A stretch of DNA of 28,095 nt from a virus: the IMG/VR virus record IMGVR_UViG_3300020202_000192, positions 1 through 28,095 of that record; one strand, written 5' to 3'. The notes beneath the pieces are model-generated. The model had not been told where the DNA came from and searched no databases. It saw only the letters and a program-made list of their open reading frames with translations. The position numbers were made by a program, and so were the translations under genes. Of the stretch, positions 6,286 to 28,095 are shown piece after piece (positions within the stretch are counted from its first letter, which is position 1; each line of letters opens with the position of its first letter).

Positions 6286-6675
6286 TCAGCGCGGTAGCTG
6301 CCAGTGGACGTAGTCGCGCATCTTCCAGTCCCCGCCCCACTCGAGCTTCACGCCTAGATCAGCCGCGATCCCTCTCACCACCGCCGCCAGCCTCACGAAC
6401 CCCGCCGTGTCCTTCCAGTCGATGACGCGCTTGCCGGTCTTGGCGCTCACCTTGAGCGGGGCCGCGTCCACCGCGGTCGACGGGATCGTGTTGTGCCGCG
6501 ACTTCGGCCACGGCAATTGCGAGAGCTTCGCCTCGTAGTGGGCGGTCTGATCCGCCTGGCCTCGATGCCCGCAAATGATCTGCACGTCGGCCACTTCGGC
6601 GACCGCCGTCCAGACGCGAACCAGGTCGTCGTGACAGGTGGCCAGGCGCCTGCGGGAAATCTCTGACATCGACAC
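6286..6675 (-). CDS. M15-family peptidoglycan peptidase (endolysin)
   Basis: A 129-residue single-domain peptidase of the M15 (VanY/L-alanyl-D-glutamate peptidase-like) family used by phages as an endolysin. The zinc ligands are visible as His61 in SRHN, Asp70 in STAVDAAPL and His124 in DYVHWQL, with Asp121 as the likely catalytic residue. GHRGQADQTAHYE near residues 36-48 is the expected upstream segment. No signal peptide or wall-binding domain is seen, so it would need a holin to reach peptidoglycan. The GTG at 6675 is preferred over the ATG at 6669 because AGGAG (6687-6683) is 7 nt upstream of it. It is the only complete minus-strand gene in the window. Confidence 0.9.
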   Translation of the reverse strand: MSMSEISRRRLATCHDDLVRVWTAVAEVADVQIICGHRGQADQTAHYEAKLSQLPWPKSRHNTIPSTAVDAAPLKVSAKTGKRVIDWKDTAGFVRLAAVVRGIAADLGVKLEWGGDWKMRDYVHWQLPR

Positions 6676-7073: not shown

Positions 7074-7151
7074 GTGTCACAGGACCACGTCTTCACCATC
7101 GCGTTCTTCGCGATCGTCTGGTTCCTCGTCGTGTATGGGGGGCCGAAATAG
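7074..7151 (+). CDS. 25-aa transmembrane micro-protein
   Basis: A GTG at 7074 opens a 25-codon frame whose product is almost one membrane helix (FTIAFFAIVWFLVVYGG flanked by MSQDHV and PK). It ends one base before the methyltransferase ATG, and the GGGGGG inside its last codons serves that next gene. The overlapping +1-type frame that starts with ATG at 7058 is Arg-rich and unconvincing. The hydrophobic pattern is unlikely by chance in this GC-rich DNA, but the start has only a weak purine stretch upstream. Function unknown; a lysis role is possible. Confidence 0.4.
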   Translation: MSQDHVFTIAFFAIVWFLVVYGGPK

Positions 7152-7152
7152 G

Positions 7153-8229
7153 ATGACCTATCGCCTCGAGCACGGCGATTGCCTCAGCGTCCTGCGCACA
7201 CTCCCCGACTGTTCGCTCGACTCGCTCGTCACCGATCCGCCCGCCGGCATCGCCTTCATGGGCAAGGCGTGGGACCGCGACAAGGGCGGGCGCGCCGAGT
7301 GGGTCGCGTGGCTCACCGAGGTGATGCGCGAGTGCCTGCGCGTGCTGAAGCCTGGCGCGCACGGCCTCGTGTGGGCCCTGCCGCGCACGTCGCACTGGAC
7401 GGCGACGGCGCTGGAGGACGCGGGGTTCGAGGTGCGGGATGTGATCACGCACCTGTTCGGGACGGGGTTTCCGAAGTCGCTCGATGTGTCGAAGGCGATC
7501 GACGCGAAGGAGTTGCTCGGCTCATCAACCAAACAATCGGTTCGCAGATTGAATCAGGGCGAAAACTATACGCCACACGAATCGGTTGGAACGCCGGGCG
7601 CTGGCAAAGTCGGAATGTTTGAATACAGCATGCCATCCAACGGCGACGCCGCCCGCGCCGCCGCCAAGGCGATCGAGCCCCAGACCGACGCCGCCCGCCA
7701 GTGGCAAGGCTGGGGGACAGCGCTCAAGCCGGCCGCTGAATTCTGGTGGCTTGTGCGCAAGCCGCTCGCCGCGAAAACGGTGGCGGCGAATGTGCTCGAG
7801 TATGGGACGGGGGCGATCAATGTCGATGGGTGTCGGGTGGGAACGGCCAAGCGGCACCCGGGAAACTATGTCGACGGTGTCACCGGCGGTCGCACGACGG
7901 GTTTGTACGGAGCCACCGATCGCGCGGACTTCGATGCAAACCAAGGCCGCTTCCCCGCCAACGTCGTCCTGTCGCATTCGCCCGGCTGCGACGAGGCATG
8001 CGCTCCCGATTGCGCGGTGCGGATGCTGGATGAGCAGAGCGGAAATCTAAAGGGCCCGGGAAATACTCGCGACGCCTTTGGGACGGCGATTTACGGATCG
8101 AGCGTCAAAACGCGCGCACAAATCGGCGTGAACAACTATCCCGGCGAGCAGGGCGGCGCCTCCCGCTTCTTCTACTGCGCCAAAGCCTCCCGCTCCGACC
8201 GCAACCGAAAGGCCGGCGATGGACAATAA
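7153..8229 (+). CDS. DNA methyltransferase, N-terminal part (motif IV half)
   Basis: A 358-residue product matching the N-terminal part of a phage beta-class DNA (amino) methyltransferase. It has the start MTYRLEHGDCLSVLRTLPD, the motif IV region VTDPPAGIAFMGKAWD (DPPA at residues 28-31, usually DPPY), then VLKPGAHGLVWALPRTSHW and GTGFPKSLDVSKAID. The end FFYCAKASRSDRN is the segment that normally precedes HPTVKP. The SAM-binding motif I is missing here and is supplied by the next frame at 8219. The middle (about residues 120-160) is AT-richer and poorly conserved, consistent with a target-recognition region. The ATG at 7153 has GGGGGG upstream. Target base and site cannot be read from sequence. 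Confidence 0.82.
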   Translation: MTYRLEHGDCLSVLRTLPDCSLDSLVTDPPAGIAFMGKAWDRDKGGRAEWVAWLTEVMRECLRVLKPGAHGLVWALPRTSHWTATALEDAGFEVRDVITHLFGTGFPKSLDVSKAIDAKELLGSSTKQSVRRLNQGENYTPHESVGTPGAGKVGMFEYSMPSNGDAARAAAKAIEPQTDAARQWQGWGTALKPAAEFWWLVRKPLAAKTVAANVLEYGTGAINVDGCRVGTAKRHPGNYVDGVTGGRTTGLYGATDRADFDANQGRFPANVVLSHSPGCDEACAPDCAVRMLDEQSGNLKGPGNTRDAFGTAIYGSSVKTRAQIGVNNYPGEQGGASRFFYCAKASRSDRNRKAGDGQ

Positions 8230-8431
8230 GCATCCCACCGTGAAGTCCACGAAGCTGATGGCCTACCTGATCCGCCTCGTCACGCCGCCGGGCGGGACGG
8301 TGCTCGACCCCTTCATGGGGAGCGGCTCCACCGGCGTTGCCGCGCGCGACGAGGGGATGCAGTTCGTGGGGATCGAGCAGGAGCGCGAGTACTTCGAGGT
8401 GGCGCGTGAACGGCTTGGGGTAGGAGCATGA
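8219..8431 (+). CDS. DNA methyltransferase, C-terminal part (motif I half)
   Basis: A 70-residue product with HPTVK at residues 5-9 and LDPFMGSGSTGVAA (motif I, SAM binding, about residues 29-42). It ends in the QEREYFEVARERL helix typical of the C-terminus of beta-class methyltransferases. It is offset by +1 relative to the preceding frame and overlaps it by 11 bases. In related enzymes the two parts are one polypeptide. AAAGG at 8208-8212 lies 6 nt before the ATG, so separate translation is possible. This frame stays open upstream to about 8051, so ribosomal or sequencing frameshift are also possible. With the other half it would form a complete active site. Confidence 0.78.
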   Translation: MDNKHPTVKSTKLMAYLIRLVTPPGGTVLDPFMGSGSTGVAARDEGMQFVGIEQEREYFEVARERLGVGA

Positions 8432-8541: not shown

Positions 8542-8921
8542 TGGCCAAGATGGGACGACCGCCGATCGAGATCGACTGGCAGCTCGTCGACTCGCTATGC
8601 GAGATCCACTGCACCGAGGCCGAGATCGCGGCCATCCTCCGAGTCTCGATCGACACGCTCGCACGCCGCGCCAAATCCGAGTTTGGCAAGACATTCGCGG
8701 AGTATTTTAAAGAGAAGTCCGCGGGCGGCAAAAGTTCGCTGCGTCGTGCGCAGTACAAGAAGGCGATGGACGGCAACCCGGCGATGCTGATCTGGCTCGG
8801 CAAGCAATGGCTCGGTCAGGTAGACCATCACGTGCCCGACGATGAGGTGGTGCCCTTCATCATCCAGCGCGCCTCGGGCGAGCAGGTCTTGCTTGGGGTG
8901 AAGCAGAAGGAGGGGGCGTGA
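8541..8921 (+). CDS. Terminase small subunit-like HTH protein
   Basis: A 126-residue protein. An N-terminal GRPPIEIDW leads into an HTH (LCEIHCTEAEIAAILRVSID followed by TLARRAKSEFG). Then come FAEYFKEKSAGGKSSLRRAQ and NPAMLIWLGKQWLGQ. This combination (GRPP-like start, HTH, SLRR, AMLIWLGKQ) is seen in phage proteins encoded just upstream of the large terminase and treated as small terminase or packaging DNA-recognition subunits. Here a NeuB-like gene, a small gene and a nuclease gene separate it from TerL. The ATG at 8541 is chosen; a GTG directly before it (8538) is in frame. It would bind the packaging site on phage DNA. Confidence 0.75.
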   Translation: MAKMGRPPIEIDWQLVDSLCEIHCTEAEIAAILRVSIDTLARRAKSEFGKTFAEYFKEKSAGGKSSLRRAQYKKAMDGNPAMLIWLGKQWLGQVDHHVPDDEVVPFIIQRASGEQVLLGVKQKEGA

Positions 8922-9901
8922 CGAGGCTGTTCGAGGCTAAACCGTTCGTTATTGCGGAAGTGGGCAGCTCGTGGAGGACCCTCAACGACTGCATCCAGTC
9001 GATCGGGGTGGCGAAGGCGGTGGGCGCCGATGCGTGCAAGTTCCAGGCGTTCACGCACAACGACCTGTACGGCCTCGGGGAGAAGCCGTGGCCGCATGTT
9101 CCGGGCGAGTCGCCGTATCTGGACGTGTCCTGGCTCCCAGCCCTCAAGGAGAAGGCCGACGCCTGCGGCATCGAACTGATGTGTACCGCGTTCTCGCCCG
9201 AGCTGGTCGCGGCGGTGGATCCGTTCGTCACCGTGCATAAGGTGGCGTCGTCGGATCTGAGCTGGCCGCAGCTACTTCAGGCGGTGGCGAGGACGGGGAA
9301 GCCGGTGCTGCTCAGCACGGGGGCGTCGAGCGTTGGCGACATCCAGGCGGCGCTGCTGACCATGGCGCCGGCGATCTTCGACAAAGTGTTGCTCTATTGC
9401 GTCGCAGCCTATCCAGCGCTCCAGGTCGACCTGAGCGTGATGCACCAGCTGCAGAAGCTGGCCGGCGAGGGCATGGTCGTCGGATTCTCCGATCACACAC
9501 CAGGCATCACCGTGGCAGTTGAGGCATGCCGGCAAGGGGCGCGCGTTCTGGAGAAGCACTTCACCGCCTTCCCCGACCTCGAGAGTCCCGACCGAGGGCA
9601 CAGCCTCACGCCCGACGAGTTCAAGCTGATGGTCGATCACATCCGCGGCGTGAGGAAGCCCACGATCGGGCCGACGCCGGAGGAGCGGGACATGCTGCTC
9701 CGCCACAACCGCCGTCTCCTGGCCACGCGCGACGTGAAGGCTGGCGAGGTGCTCCGGTATGGGGAGAACTTCGGGGCGTACCGCAGCCTGGTCGACGACA
9801 CGCGGGGGCTGAGTCCGTTCGCGTGGGAGTCGGTGGAGGGTAGGACGGCGCGGGTGGACATCGGGCGCGGGACGGGGATTGGGCCGGGGGATTTCGGGTG
9901 A
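8918..9901 (+). CDS. NeuB-type nonulosonic acid synthase with SAF domain
   Basis: A 327-residue protein of the N-acetylneuraminate synthase family (NeuB/LegI/PseI), which condenses phosphoenolpyruvate with a six-carbon amino sugar to make a nine-carbon sialic acid-like sugar. Visible family residues are FVIAEVGSSW (Glu14), ACKFQAF (Lys41), FSDHTPG (His193) and LEKHFTAFPD (His214), the two His being the expected metal ligands. The usual GPDH motif is changed to SPDRGHSLTPDEF. A C-terminal SAF (antifreeze-like) domain begins near residue 262 (RHNRRLLATRDVKAGEVL). It has nearly full family length. GGAGG precedes the GTG start, which overlaps the upstream stop. Which sugar it makes (Neu, Leg, Pse or other) cannot be told. 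It is an unusual cargo inside a packaging operon. Confidence 0.9.
   Translation: MTRLFEAKPFVIAEVGSSWRTLNDCIQSIGVAKAVGADACKFQAFTHNDLYGLGEKPWPHVPGESPYLDVSWLPALKEKADACGIELMCTAFSPELVAAVDPFVTVHKVASSDLSWPQLLQAVARTGKPVLLSTGASSVGDIQAALLTMAPAIFDKVLLYCVAAYPALQVDLSVMHQLQKLAGEGMVVGFSDHTPGITVAVEACRQGARVLEKHFTAFPDLESPDRGHSLTPDEFKLMVDHIRGVRKPTIGPTPEERDMLLRHNRRLLATRDVKAGEVLRYGENFGAYRSLVDDTRGLSPFAWESVEGRTARVDIGRGTGIGPGDFG
9885..9901 (+). repeat. Duplicated translation-initiation segment, copy 1
   Basis: CGGGGGATTTCGGGTGA spans a G-rich Shine-Dalgarno, a 7-nt spacer and the GTG start of the 9898 gene, plus the NeuB-like stop. The same 17 bases recur exactly at 10102-10118. Confidence 0.8.
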
Positions 9902-12146: not shown

Positions 12147-12223
12147 TGCGGGCATGGAGCAACGGCGGCTCGTCAGGCTCATAACCTGAATATCGGCGGG
12201 TTCGACTCCCGCGCCCGCGACCA
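12147..12223 (+). tRNA. tRNA with CAT anticodon (Met, or Ile2)
   Basis: A 77-nt cloverleaf starts directly after the upstream stop. The acceptor stem is TGCGGGC with GCCCGCG (one T-G pair). The D stem is GAGC/GCTC. The anticodon stem is TCAGG/CCTGA with loop CTCATAA. The T stem is GCGGG/CCCGC with loop TTCGACT. It has discriminator A and an encoded CCA. The anticodon stem lacks the three G-C pairs of initiator tRNA. Three bases (ATG) rather than two lie between acceptor and D stem, which is slightly odd. Elongator Met is the default; lysidine-type Ile cannot be excluded. Confidence 0.85.
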
Positions 12224-25109: not shown

Positions 25110-26878
25110 AGCTCGCGGACCTCGGCGACTACAAGGTCGAGTCGAAACCGGAGCCACCGAATGGCTCCGGAAAGTCGATGAAGCTTTCGGATCTCGGCGA
25201 ATTCAAGATCGAGTCTTCGCCCGCCGCCACCGCCGATCAAAAGGGGCGCAGCGGCCTCGGGCGCGTCGCCGCCGCCGTCGCTACGAACACGCTGCTGCCG
25301 GGCTTAGGTGGCGCCGTCCTGGGCGCGACTACGAACCAGAAGGAGAAGGAGGCATTCACCCGCGGCGCAGCTCAGACCGCGAGCTTCGGCCTCATCGACG
25401 AGGCCACGGCCGGACTGGGTGCGGCTATCGACGTCGGCGCCGCCGCGCTTGGCAAACGAGGGGACATCTCTTTCGGCGACGCTTACCGCACCCGCCGCGA
25501 CGCGATCCGCAAGGCGGACGACAAGTCCGCGGCGGAAGACTCGGGGCTCTACGGTGCCGGCACCGTCGGCGGTGCAGCCCTTGGCGTCCTCGCGCCCGGC
25601 CTGAAGAGCCTGCAAGGGGCTCGCGCGGCGACCGAGGTCGGCGGCTTCGCCGCGAAGGCGCTCCCCCCTGTCGTCGGTAGCGCTCTCGTCCGGCGGATGG
25701 GGAAGGAGGGCCTGGGACGCGCAGTGATCGCTTCCGGCCAGGGCGCCGTGGCCGGCGCGGGTATGAGCAAGGCGGATGTCACGAAAGGCGACGTCGCCGG
25801 CGTCGCAAAGGACGCGCTCTTCGGCTCGGCGATCGCGACCGGCGCGCAGGTCGGCGCGGACAGGCTCGGGGCTGCGCTCGGCGGCGTCGCAAAGTCCGCA
25901 TCCGGTTGGCTCGACGACGTTGCTGCCAACCGCGCCTTCAAGGCCGCGACGGGAAATCAGGGCAAGGTCTATCAGGACGCGGTCAAGCAGGGGCGCGTCA
26001 CGCAGGTAGGCAATGAGATCCTGGACAGCAACACGCTGCGCCCGATCGACGTCGTCAACCCGCTGCGGACGCCGGCCAAGGCCATCGCGGAGCGGGCGGA
26101 AGAGAAGGCCGGCCGGGCGTGGACGAACATCGAGAAGACGTTCGCGGATATCGACCAGCGCGTCCCGAATGCCGTGGACACGACGCCGGTACGTGACGCG
26201 GCACTCAAACGCGCCTTGCAGATCGAGTCGCCGAATACCGAGGCGGAGGTCGCCAACCTGCTCAGGCAGGGCGGCGCCTTCGAGAAGAAGGGCGCCGTCT
26301 CGCTCGCTGAGACGCAGCGGCTCAAGAACACCTACCCGTTCAATCCCCAGGACCCGTTCAACGTCTCGGGGACGATGAAGCGCGGTCTAATGGAGGCGCA
26401 GGAGAAGGCCGTCGAGAGGCACGCCGGGGCCGAGGCTCTCGCGCAGTACAAGCGCGACAAGCAGCTCTACGGCTCGCTCGTCGGCGCCGAGAAGGCGGCC
26501 GAAGGACTGGCGACGCGCGAGGCGAAAAATCGGACGTTCAGCCTCACCGACAACATCCTGGGCGCGGCGCAGCTCAAGCTCGACCCCTCTTCCTGGCCAA
26601 AGGCGCTGGCGACGGCGGTTGGCAACAAGGCGCTGCGCGAGCGCGGATCGGCGGCGGCGGCAATCACGGCCGATGGGCTCGCCAGTGTTCTGAAATCCGC
26701 CCCGCAGACCTTCGGCAAGTTCGCCCCCGAGCTGCAACGCGCCGCTGCGCGCAGCCCGGAGGCGCTCGAGATGACCCATACGATCCTGCTCGAAAGCGAG
26801 CCAGCCTACCGCGCGATCCTCGGGCTGGATCCTGGGGATAGCGCCGTCAAACGTCGACTGCAAAAGCAAGCCGAGTAA
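25106..26878 (+). CDS. Large internal virion / ejection-type protein
   Basis: A 590-residue Ala/Gly-rich helical protein, the last of the block. Its N-terminus has a duplicated short motif: MKLADLGDYKVES (residues 1-13) and MKLSDLGEFKIES (25-37). A hydrophobic, Gly/Ala-rich central part follows (GLGGAVLGATT, then DEATAGLGAAIDVGAAAL, then SGLYGAGTVGGAALGVLAP), compatible with membrane insertion, and then long charged helices up to the end (LQRAAARSPEALEMTHTIL). This order of features resembles large podovirus ejection proteins. No peptidase or transglycosylase motif is seen. The second motif copy begins with Met25, an internal start candidate. Confidence 0.68.
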   Translation: MKLADLGDYKVESKPEPPNGSGKSMKLSDLGEFKIESSPAATADQKGRSGLGRVAAAVATNTLLPGLGGAVLGATTNQKEKEAFTRGAAQTASFGLIDEATAGLGAAIDVGAAALGKRGDISFGDAYRTRRDAIRKADDKSAAEDSGLYGAGTVGGAALGVLAPGLKSLQGARAATEVGGFAAKALPPVVGSALVRRMGKEGLGRAVIASGQGAVAGAGMSKADVTKGDVAGVAKDALFGSAIATGAQVGADRLGAALGGVAKSASGWLDDVAANRAFKAATGNQGKVYQDAVKQGRVTQVGNEILDSNTLRPIDVVNPLRTPAKAIAERAEEKAGRAWTNIEKTFADIDQRVPNAVDTTPVRDAALKRALQIESPNTEAEVANLLRQGGAFEKKGAVSLAETQRLKNTYPFNPQDPFNVSGTMKRGLMEAQEKAVERHAGAEALAQYKRDKQLYGSLVGAEKAAEGLATREAKNRTFSLTDNILGAAQLKLDPSSWPKALATAVGNKALRERGSAAAAITADGLASVLKSAPQTFGKFAPELQRAAARSPEALEMTHTILLESEPAYRAILGLDPGDSAVKRRLQKQAE

Positions 26879-26884
26879 GGCTTT

Positions 26885-26890
26885 GGGAGG
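26885..26890 (+). promoter_or_regulatory. Shine-Dalgarno for an ATA start
   Basis: GGGAGG lies six bases before the ATA at 26897, the ideal distance, and no ATG, GTG or TTG is available in that frame between the previous stop (26876-26878) and 27208. A GTG out of frame (26892) reads only GTG-TCA-TAG and stops over the ATA. Confidence 0.65.
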
Positions 26891-26896
26891 TGTGTC

Positions 26897-28095
26897 ATAG
26901 CTGCGCCCTCGTATACGTACACGCTAACTAACGGGACGACCGCGGACGCTTCGCAGGTCCAACAGAACTTCACCGACATCCTCAACGGCGTCACCGACGG
27001 GACGAAGGACCTGTCGATCGCCGCCCTCACCTGCGCCGGCACCGTCGCACTCAACGGCAACATCGGCCTCGGCAACGCTTCCGGCGACGACCTGACCGTC
27101 ACCGCGTCGCTCGCCTCGTCGATCCCGATCAAGACGACGGCGAGCTACGACATCGGCAGCTCGACGCTCGGTCTGCGCGCGGCCTACTTCGGCGCCAACA
27201 GCCAGACGGTGAACATCCGCGGCTCGGGCTCCATGTCGGCGACGTGGACGCTCACGCTCCCGGTGACGGCGGGCACGGCGAACTACATCCTGATCACCGA
27301 CGGCAGCGGGGTCTCGTCGTGGTCGGCGATCACCAACAGCAACTGGTTCGCCACGGCATCGGTGGCGGGCACCGTCTCGACGGCCTCGCAGACCCTTGCC
27401 GGCGCCAAGACGTTTTCCGACAGCCTCACGGTCGGCACGGACACGACGACGTCGAGCCGGGCGATCGAGCTCAGGGTCGACGACACGGCAAACAACGAGC
27501 AGCCGACGTTCGACATCTACCGGGACGGGACGGTCCGGGCGACGCTTGGCGTCGCGGGTGCCGCGAACGCGCTCGGACCCGGCAGCGGCAACACCGCCGA
27601 GAACGACTTCGTCATGCGCCTCAACAGCCAGGCGCTCGTCGTCACCTGCGACAACGCGTCGACGCTCCACGGCAAATGCACATCTGCCGGCGAATGGAGC
27701 TTCCCGGTGCAGCCGTCGGCGAGCGTCTACCTCAGCGCCGATCAGACCGGCATCGCGGACGCGACGCCGACGAAGATCACGTTCAACACCGAAGAGTTCG
27801 ACGCGAACGCCGACTTCGACTCGTCAACCAACAACCGCTTCACCGCGCCCGTCGCGGGCAAGTACCTGGTCGCGGCTACGGCGAGCGTCAACCGCACGGG
27901 CGGCACCGGCATCTCGCGGATCAAGCTGATGCTCTATAAGAACGGCTCCGAGTTCAAGGTGCTCTCGGACATCAATTTCAGCACCGCGACGACCAACGAT
28001 CAGACCGCGAACGGCGCGATCACCGTCGAACTGGCTGCGACGGACTACCTCGAGATCTGGGTGCGGATCTCGGGCACCGGCACGCTCGTCACGAA
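26897..28095 (+). CDS. Tail fibre with C1q-like C-terminus (partial, ATA start)
   Basis: The frame is open from just after the previous stop to the right window edge; 399 codons are visible and the end is missing. The N-terminus AAPSYTYTLTNGTTADASQV, followed by QQNFTDILNGVTDGTKDLSI, is the usual opening of podovirus tail fibres and appendages, which normally start with Met where the codon here is ATA (26897). The middle is Thr/Ser/Gly-rich with short beta-strands (TASYDIGSSTLGLRAAYFG). From about residue 275 a C1q/TNF-like domain is visible (NRFTAPVAGKYLVAATASV, then YLEIWVRISGTG), suited to receptor binding. If ATA is not used, the first standard start is the GTG at 27209, which would lose the conserved N-terminus. 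Confidence 0.8.
   Translation, partial: MAAPSYTYTLTNGTTADASQVQQNFTDILNGVTDGTKDLSIAALTCAGTVALNGNIGLGNASGDDLTVTASLASSIPIKTTASYDIGSSTLGLRAAYFGANSQTVNIRGSGSMSATWTLTLPVTAGTANYILITDGSGVSSWSAITNSNWFATASVAGTVSTASQTLAGAKTFSDSLTVGTDTTTSSRAIELRVDDTANNEQPTFDIYRDGTVRATLGVAGAANALGPGSGNTAENDFVMRLNSQALVVTCDNASTLHGKCTSAGEWSFPVQPSASVYLSADQTGIADATPTKITFNTEEFDANADFDSSTNNRFTAPVAGKYLVAATASVNRTGGTGISRIKLMLYKNGSEFKVLSDINFSTATTNDQTANGAITVELAATDYLEIWVRISGTGTLVT

Follow-up and report, generated by a model that had tools for sequence, protein, structure and literature searches.

The DNA analysed here, a metagenomic viral record of 28,095 nucleotides (IMG/VR IMGVR_UViG_3300020202_000192; hereafter the window), ends inside a gene whose product, judged by its sequence, is a relative of tail-fibre proteins (Table 1). 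The window's fibre protein matches two PHROGs, both of unknown function, and 5 of the 11 N-termini in our fibre alignment (A1) match a 'tail fiber protein' PHROG, the window's own member not being among them. Read from position 26876, the fibre frame runs TAA GGC TTT GGG AGG TGT GTC ATA GCT GCG CCC TCG, and the residues that follow the ATA at 26897 are A-A-P-S. The initial annotation had noted that this ATA is preceded by no ATG, GTG or TTG in frame, and the interval from the TAA at 26876-26878 to the GTG at 27209 is indeed free of canonical starts. Its placement of the motif GGGAGG (26885-26890) exactly six bases before the ATA also holds, the intervening bases being TGTGTC; the full Shine-Dalgarno (SD) match, GGGAGGTG, ends four bases 5' of the ATA. 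As a codon ATA is rare in the window, accounting for 5 of the 6961 codons counted, the fibre start included. No special RNA fold was found at the fibre start, where the folding z score was an ordinary -0.24. The upstream gene of 590 residues had no PHROG or Pfam match.

Table 1. Features of the window referred to in the text
Feature	Position	Strand	Basis or remark
M15-type peptidase, possibly endolysin	6286-6675	-	amid plus-strand genes
N6/N4 DNA methyltransferase in two frames	N-terminal part 7147-8229, C-terminal part 8219-8431	+	
NeuB-family gene (sialic-acid synthase type, SAF domain)	8918-9901	+	just upstream of terminase region
tRNA-Met(CAU), initiator-like	12147-12223	+	ARAGORN and family search; between zinc-ribbon gene and portal gene
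Upstream gene, 590 aa	25106-26878	+	homologues in G002 and G005
TAA, stop of the upstream gene, same frame as fibre	26876-26878	+	reading frames
GGGAGGTG, 8-nt SD match with one G-U	26885-26892	+	RNAduplex -14.1 kcal/mol, 12-nt 16S tail
GTG-TCA-TAG mini-frame, overlapping SD and ATA, considered incidental	26892-26900	+	sequence
ATA, putative initiation codon of the tail-fibre gene	26897-26899	+	opposite ATG/GTG/TTG in 32/32 informative relatives
Tail-fibre coding frame, 399 codons, incomplete, running to record end	26897-28093	+	translation
GTG, earliest in-frame canonical start	27209-27211	+	104 codons inside fibre

Elsewhere in the record, the DNA methyltransferase is divided between two frames, while it is one open frame in both of the two reference phages compared. 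The division could be an error, decay or a real split, and a sequence error or real decay may therefore exist in the record away from the fibre start. Homologues of the NeuB-family gene were seen in six related genomes (G001, G002, G004, G005, G006 and G007). The D stem and anticodon arm of the tRNA align with E. coli metY and not with metT or ileX. In this molecule U1 pairs weakly with G72, the D loop has 7 nt and one additional base precedes the D stem; we take the metY-like features and the U1-G72 pair to be of initiator type. Phage contig L022 carries a close variant of this tRNA and L090 the same core. Viral contigs commonly contain phage-encoded tRNAs of this initiator-like type whose D loop has 7 nt (92 stretches, at least 80 loci), and one CcrSC phage tRNA is annotated as tRNA-fMet. 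An Rfam scan of the window at gathering thresholds gave no match, missing this tRNA as well, and a scan of genomes with the tRNA core returned one cyanobacterial contig and no clue to the host. The initiator-like tRNA was absent from the first 10 relatives, which include three (G001, G003 and G004) with other non-canonical start sites, and it was rejected as the cause of non-canonical starts because these three lack it.

Start codons in fibre relatives and in other conserved virion genes

Viral contigs were scanned with the first 168 fibre codons, which yielded 16 loci; 10 of these covered residue 1 and the 6 others, not reaching it, were excluded. The ten (L001-L010), whose fibres are 48-82% identical to that of the window over the matched N-terminal part, all have a canonical codon at the ATA column (9 ATG, 1 GTG). 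A profile scan found 36 loci, of which 31 were examined; L069, L070 and L073-L075 had internal matches only and were left out, and L067, L068 and L071 were set aside for want of an alignment at the start. All 28 informative loci were again canonical (26 ATG, 1 GTG, 1 TTG). When paired patterns were scanned, [AGT]TG was matched at the start codon 29 times and AT[ACT] once, and 4 extra contigs were gained; the single AT[ACT] match is not a fibre, because a stop comes three codons later. United by contig name, the searches give 32 relatives, with 29 ATG, 2 GTG and 1 TTG and with ATA in none; the closest relative, G001, has ATG. The earlier proposal that ATA 26897 stands where the methionine belongs is thus borne out, since it aligns with the Met codon in every informative relative. 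Among the relatives examined, the fibre ATA is private to one metagenomic record. A search of viral contigs for near-identical DNA at the fibre start gave 0 matches and so no second copy of the ATA site, although near-identical records may lie outside what this search covered, and neither tblastn of the fibre against the phage and plasmid collections nor a search of genome contigs with alignment A1 returned a match.

The same comparison bears on whether ribosomes could enter the frame by another route, namely readthrough of the in-frame TAA, reinitiation after GTG-TCA-TAG, or initiation at GTC 26894 or GTG 27209. The upstream gene does share the fibre frame, and Streptomyces sigR is reported to begin at GTC (PMC5472188). 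However, the relatives start at the ATA column and their upstream in-frame stops lie at varied distances, and on the latter ground TAA readthrough was rejected. GTC 26894 would be just three bases past GGAGG, and a start at GTG 27209 would delete 104 residues, including the conserved fibre N-terminus. The mini-frame does end across the ATA with its stop overlapping that codon, as originally described, but the suggestion that it aids reinitiation found no support, because GTG 26892 overlaps the SD, sharing its last base one base from GGAGG, and a ribosome cannot use both; the mini-frame is unlikely to matter. Taken together, we regard these other modes of entry as very improbable.

We then asked how often conserved virion genes lack a canonical start. 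An orthologue was counted when it had no ATG, GTG or TTG as far as the tenth codon beyond the homologous start, SD being ignored; one best match was taken per gene and record, and the alignment had to begin no more than 25 residues from the query start. The census of the window's phage group covered 31 records (367 rows counted, 32 skipped), and a T7-like control built on phiKMV genes comprised 480 counted rows (222 isolate, 258 metagenome; 198 skipped), from which rows more than 80% identical to phiKMV had been removed before counting. Isolates and metagenomes were separated by record-name prefixes, L297 and L301 being counted as metagenome. Seven of the 367 group rows were without a canonical start: 4 of 21 for terL (G001, G003, G014, G016), 2 of 22 for the zinc-ribbon gene (G004, G025), 1 of 14 for the portal gene (G022) and 0 of 29 for the fibre. 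The control gave 4 of 480, one among the isolate rows and three among the metagenome rows, and two of these three (L266 and L275) are near-identical and probably artefacts. We dropped the idea that such starts are a trait of the group, given Fisher values (approximate, the rows being related) of 0.22 for 7/367 against 4/480 and 0.54 against the 3/258 metagenome rows. The excess in terL (4/21 against 3/346 in the other genes, p 0.00025) is a post hoc comparison. CTG or ATA was seen at plausible positions of terL starts (loci L023, L027, L210-L211 and L213). An earlier all-against-all screen, in which 82 of 316 genes 'lacked' a start, was discarded; its smallest-alignment-start criterion was too noisy. 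Orthologues of conserved virion genes without a nearby ATG, GTG or TTG are uncommon but real.

These frequencies also bear on whether the final A is a miscalled G of an ATG (or of another canonical start), or comes from a minority allele that was assembled, so that the virus itself would have a canonical start. The site occurs in a single metagenomic record, about 1.2 kb from the contig end and one transition away from the ATG of most relatives, all 32 of which are canonical, and the methyltransferase frame is split in the same record. On the other side, if consensus errors occurred at 1e-5 to 1e-4 per base (our own estimate), only about 0.003-0.03% of genes would be hit at the start, and control rows without a canonical start are commoner than that (1/222 in isolates, 3/258 in metagenomes). 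Nor would an error predict that the site has the strongest SD of the window. The concern about a base error, already raised in the initial annotation, is fair, and the recurrence of the pattern in other phages lessens it without dispelling it; we consider a miscall unlikely, though it deserves to be kept in mind.

Shine-Dalgarno strength at the ATA and at probable AUC and AUU starts in other phages

The SD duplex of the fibre ranked first of the 28 start sites in the window, two of which (2196 and 10061) are uncertain; the other 27 ranged from -2.7 to -12.2 kcal/mol. It also ranked first of 29 orthologous fibre starts, the others lying between -5.6 and -12.9, and its energy was reached by 0.23% of the 20-mers in the window. 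Since the fibre SDs of two relatives (L001 and L064) are already at -12.9, the strong SD may predate the ATA. With AGGTGT the fibre start also matches the staphylococcal 'extended SD' motif of PMC13009471 (AGGNAT, AGGNGT, GGGNAT or GGGNGT within 20 nt upstream). As a marker this motif was rejected as not specific, being present at 8 of 28 window starts, one of them that of the fibre, and at 7 of 28 orthologues.

The combination of an AUA, AUC or AUU codon with a very strong SD recurs in virion genes of other phages. In the metagenomic locus L285, ATC stands at the ATG column behind AGGAGGTG with an SD of -14.2; all 5 orthologues compared have ATG, two of the seven loci, L285 itself and L270 (no motif match), having been set aside. 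The sole control isolate row without a canonical start (L325) is Klebsiella phage vB_KpnP_KpV48, in which tail tubular protein A has ATC behind GGGGGTGG with an SD of -14.1, against ATG with an SD of -6.0 in its six relatives in the control set. An 81-base query across this Klebsiella site matched 14 records, 9 of them with at least 99% identity. Of seven such phages read at this site, six have the ATC (KpV48, ZX22, SRD2021, cmc20192, BUCT822 and cmc20191, all with an SD of -14.1) and one, BUCT86, the ATT, where the SD is -13.2. The loci with AUC or AUU at this gene (L325, L328-L334) are Klebsiella Drulisvirus isolates, in which the gene lies beside an HNH endonuclease. The annotated endonuclease gene ends past the ATC, thereby overlapping the start of tail tubular protein A. 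Of five annotated Klebsiella records examined, four place the start of tail tubular protein A 19 codons downstream and one, BUCT822, omits the gene; the two cmc records are without any annotation.

An SD of -13.2 kcal/mol or stronger was present at 11 of the 695 canonical starts located with the alignments and in 3 of 3 AUA, AUC or AUU lineages with the codon exactly at the start column (Fisher 6e-6), a class that was defined after the sites had been seen. Among all candidate non-canonical sites the figure was 3 of 10 (Fisher 7e-4), which is the safer value because the exact-column class is post hoc and the rows are related; this relatedness makes both Fisher values approximate. The CTG and doubtful sites had ordinary SDs of -4.4 to -10.7 and therefore do not fit a universal strong-SD rule. 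Among the open-licence PMC papers listed by our literature searches, none was seen to describe a phage structural gene beginning at AUA, AUC or AUU.

A tentative generalization, about which our doubts slightly outweigh our confidence, is that starts at AUA, AUC or AUU, made workable by a near-complete SD duplex, recur among phage virion genes and are missed by gene callers. Some of these starts may have arisen through the arrival of a selfish HNH gene or of new upstream sequence at the start codon, whereby a strong SD was gained and the G lost. If the class is true, gene callers that accept only ATG, GTG and TTG truncate or drop AUH-started virion genes; start-codon rules are built into phage gene callers, and proteins would be mis-annotated wherever AUH starts with a strong SD are used. 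Such phages would also provide natural examples in which to study to what extent an SD makes up for a poor start codon.

Probable initiation at AUA and its likeness to known systems

AUA is named in PMC4611024 as a rare U-centred triplet serving as a bacterial initiation codon, subject to discrimination by IF3. In Staphylococcus aureus, AUA starts are described for infC, ccpN and citZ, and an extended SD is predicted for infC and ccpN (PMC13009471). In poor medium, the non-canonical sites tested in that report reached about 10% of the output of AUG; in rich medium the ccpN start reached up to 30%. A strain with a spontaneous rpoS ATG>ATA change had RpoS lowered up to 5-fold (PMC12864459), and the same paper quotes Hecht 2017 for an ATA output in E. 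coli of up to 1% of that of ATG.

We think it probable, from the comparisons above, that ATA 26897 is a genuine base and the start of the fibre gene, where the SD would hold the 30S subunit and an fMet initiator tRNA would start at AUA. Initiation at AUA is the best explanation in our analysis, given the known AUA starts (PMC13009471) and the comparable AUC and AUU starts in isolate phages. We infer that the virus itself carries the ATA, that this codon is translated and that residue 1 is fMet. An ancestral ATG (or GTG or TTG) would have changed to ATA in the lineage of the window, and the 8-base-pair SD duplex would keep the 30S subunit in register. The ordinary fMet initiator tRNA (anticodon CAU) would then initiate at AUA through a third-position mismatch, giving a product that begins fMet-Ala-Ala-Pro-Ser. 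From the strong fibre SD together with the AUA starts reported for infC, ccpN and rpoS we infer fMet initiation at AUA, with the SD holding the register. That the phage's own initiator-like tRNA helps AUA initiation would be a bolder and speculative addition. Against initiation at AUA stand the occurrence of the ATA in a single metagenomic record and the presence of a very strong SD at only 3 of the 10 non-canonical candidate sites.

A real ATA could also be damaging, in which case this genome would be a defective or sub-optimal variant that makes little fibre or none. Output from ATA starts is reduced in the cases cited above (PMC13009471, PMC12864459), poor translation is suspected for ralp3 of emm4 streptococci, which has an ATA start (PMC11238559), and the codon is private to the window record. 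Nevertheless, the fibre has a conserved N-terminus and a frame that continues without a stop for 399 codons, as far as the record goes, its SD is exceptionally strong, and Klebsiella phage isolates carry AUC or AUU at the start of a virion gene, so we judge a damaging ATA to be quite unlikely. The initial annotation had gone further in suggesting that the ATA sets a low dose of fibre. This was not supported, because an SD that is the strongest of the 28 window starts could offset a weak codon.

E. coli infC and pcnB have AUU starts, near-cognate AUH codons that are discriminated by IF3. The fibre resembles them in its near-cognate AUH start codon; they differ in using AUU, and infC takes part in the autoregulation of IF3. 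The fibre gene shows no sign of a loop of this kind, as it neither encodes IF3 nor shows feedback on initiation fidelity. Closer in codon are S. aureus infC, ccpN and citZ as described in PMC13009471, which share the AUA start and, by prediction for infC and ccpN, a strong SD extending towards the codon. Those genes are cellular and the fibre is viral; conservation of the AUA reaches from S. aureus to B. subtilis for ccpN and is seen within a strain lineage for citZ, whereas the fibre ATA is private to one phage record. The rpoS strain of PMC12864459 is alike in its single ATG-to-ATA change at the start, after which residual expression was retained, but that mutation was acquired in the laboratory in a bacterial gene, and the fibre ATA is found in a phage record. 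Tail tubular protein A of the Klebsiella Drulisvirus isolates shares with the fibre that it is a virion gene with an AUH start, a very strong SD and ATG in relatives; it differs in having AUC or AUU, in coming from isolates and in having an HNH gene that overlaps the start, whereas the fibre has AUA and lies on a metagenomic contig.
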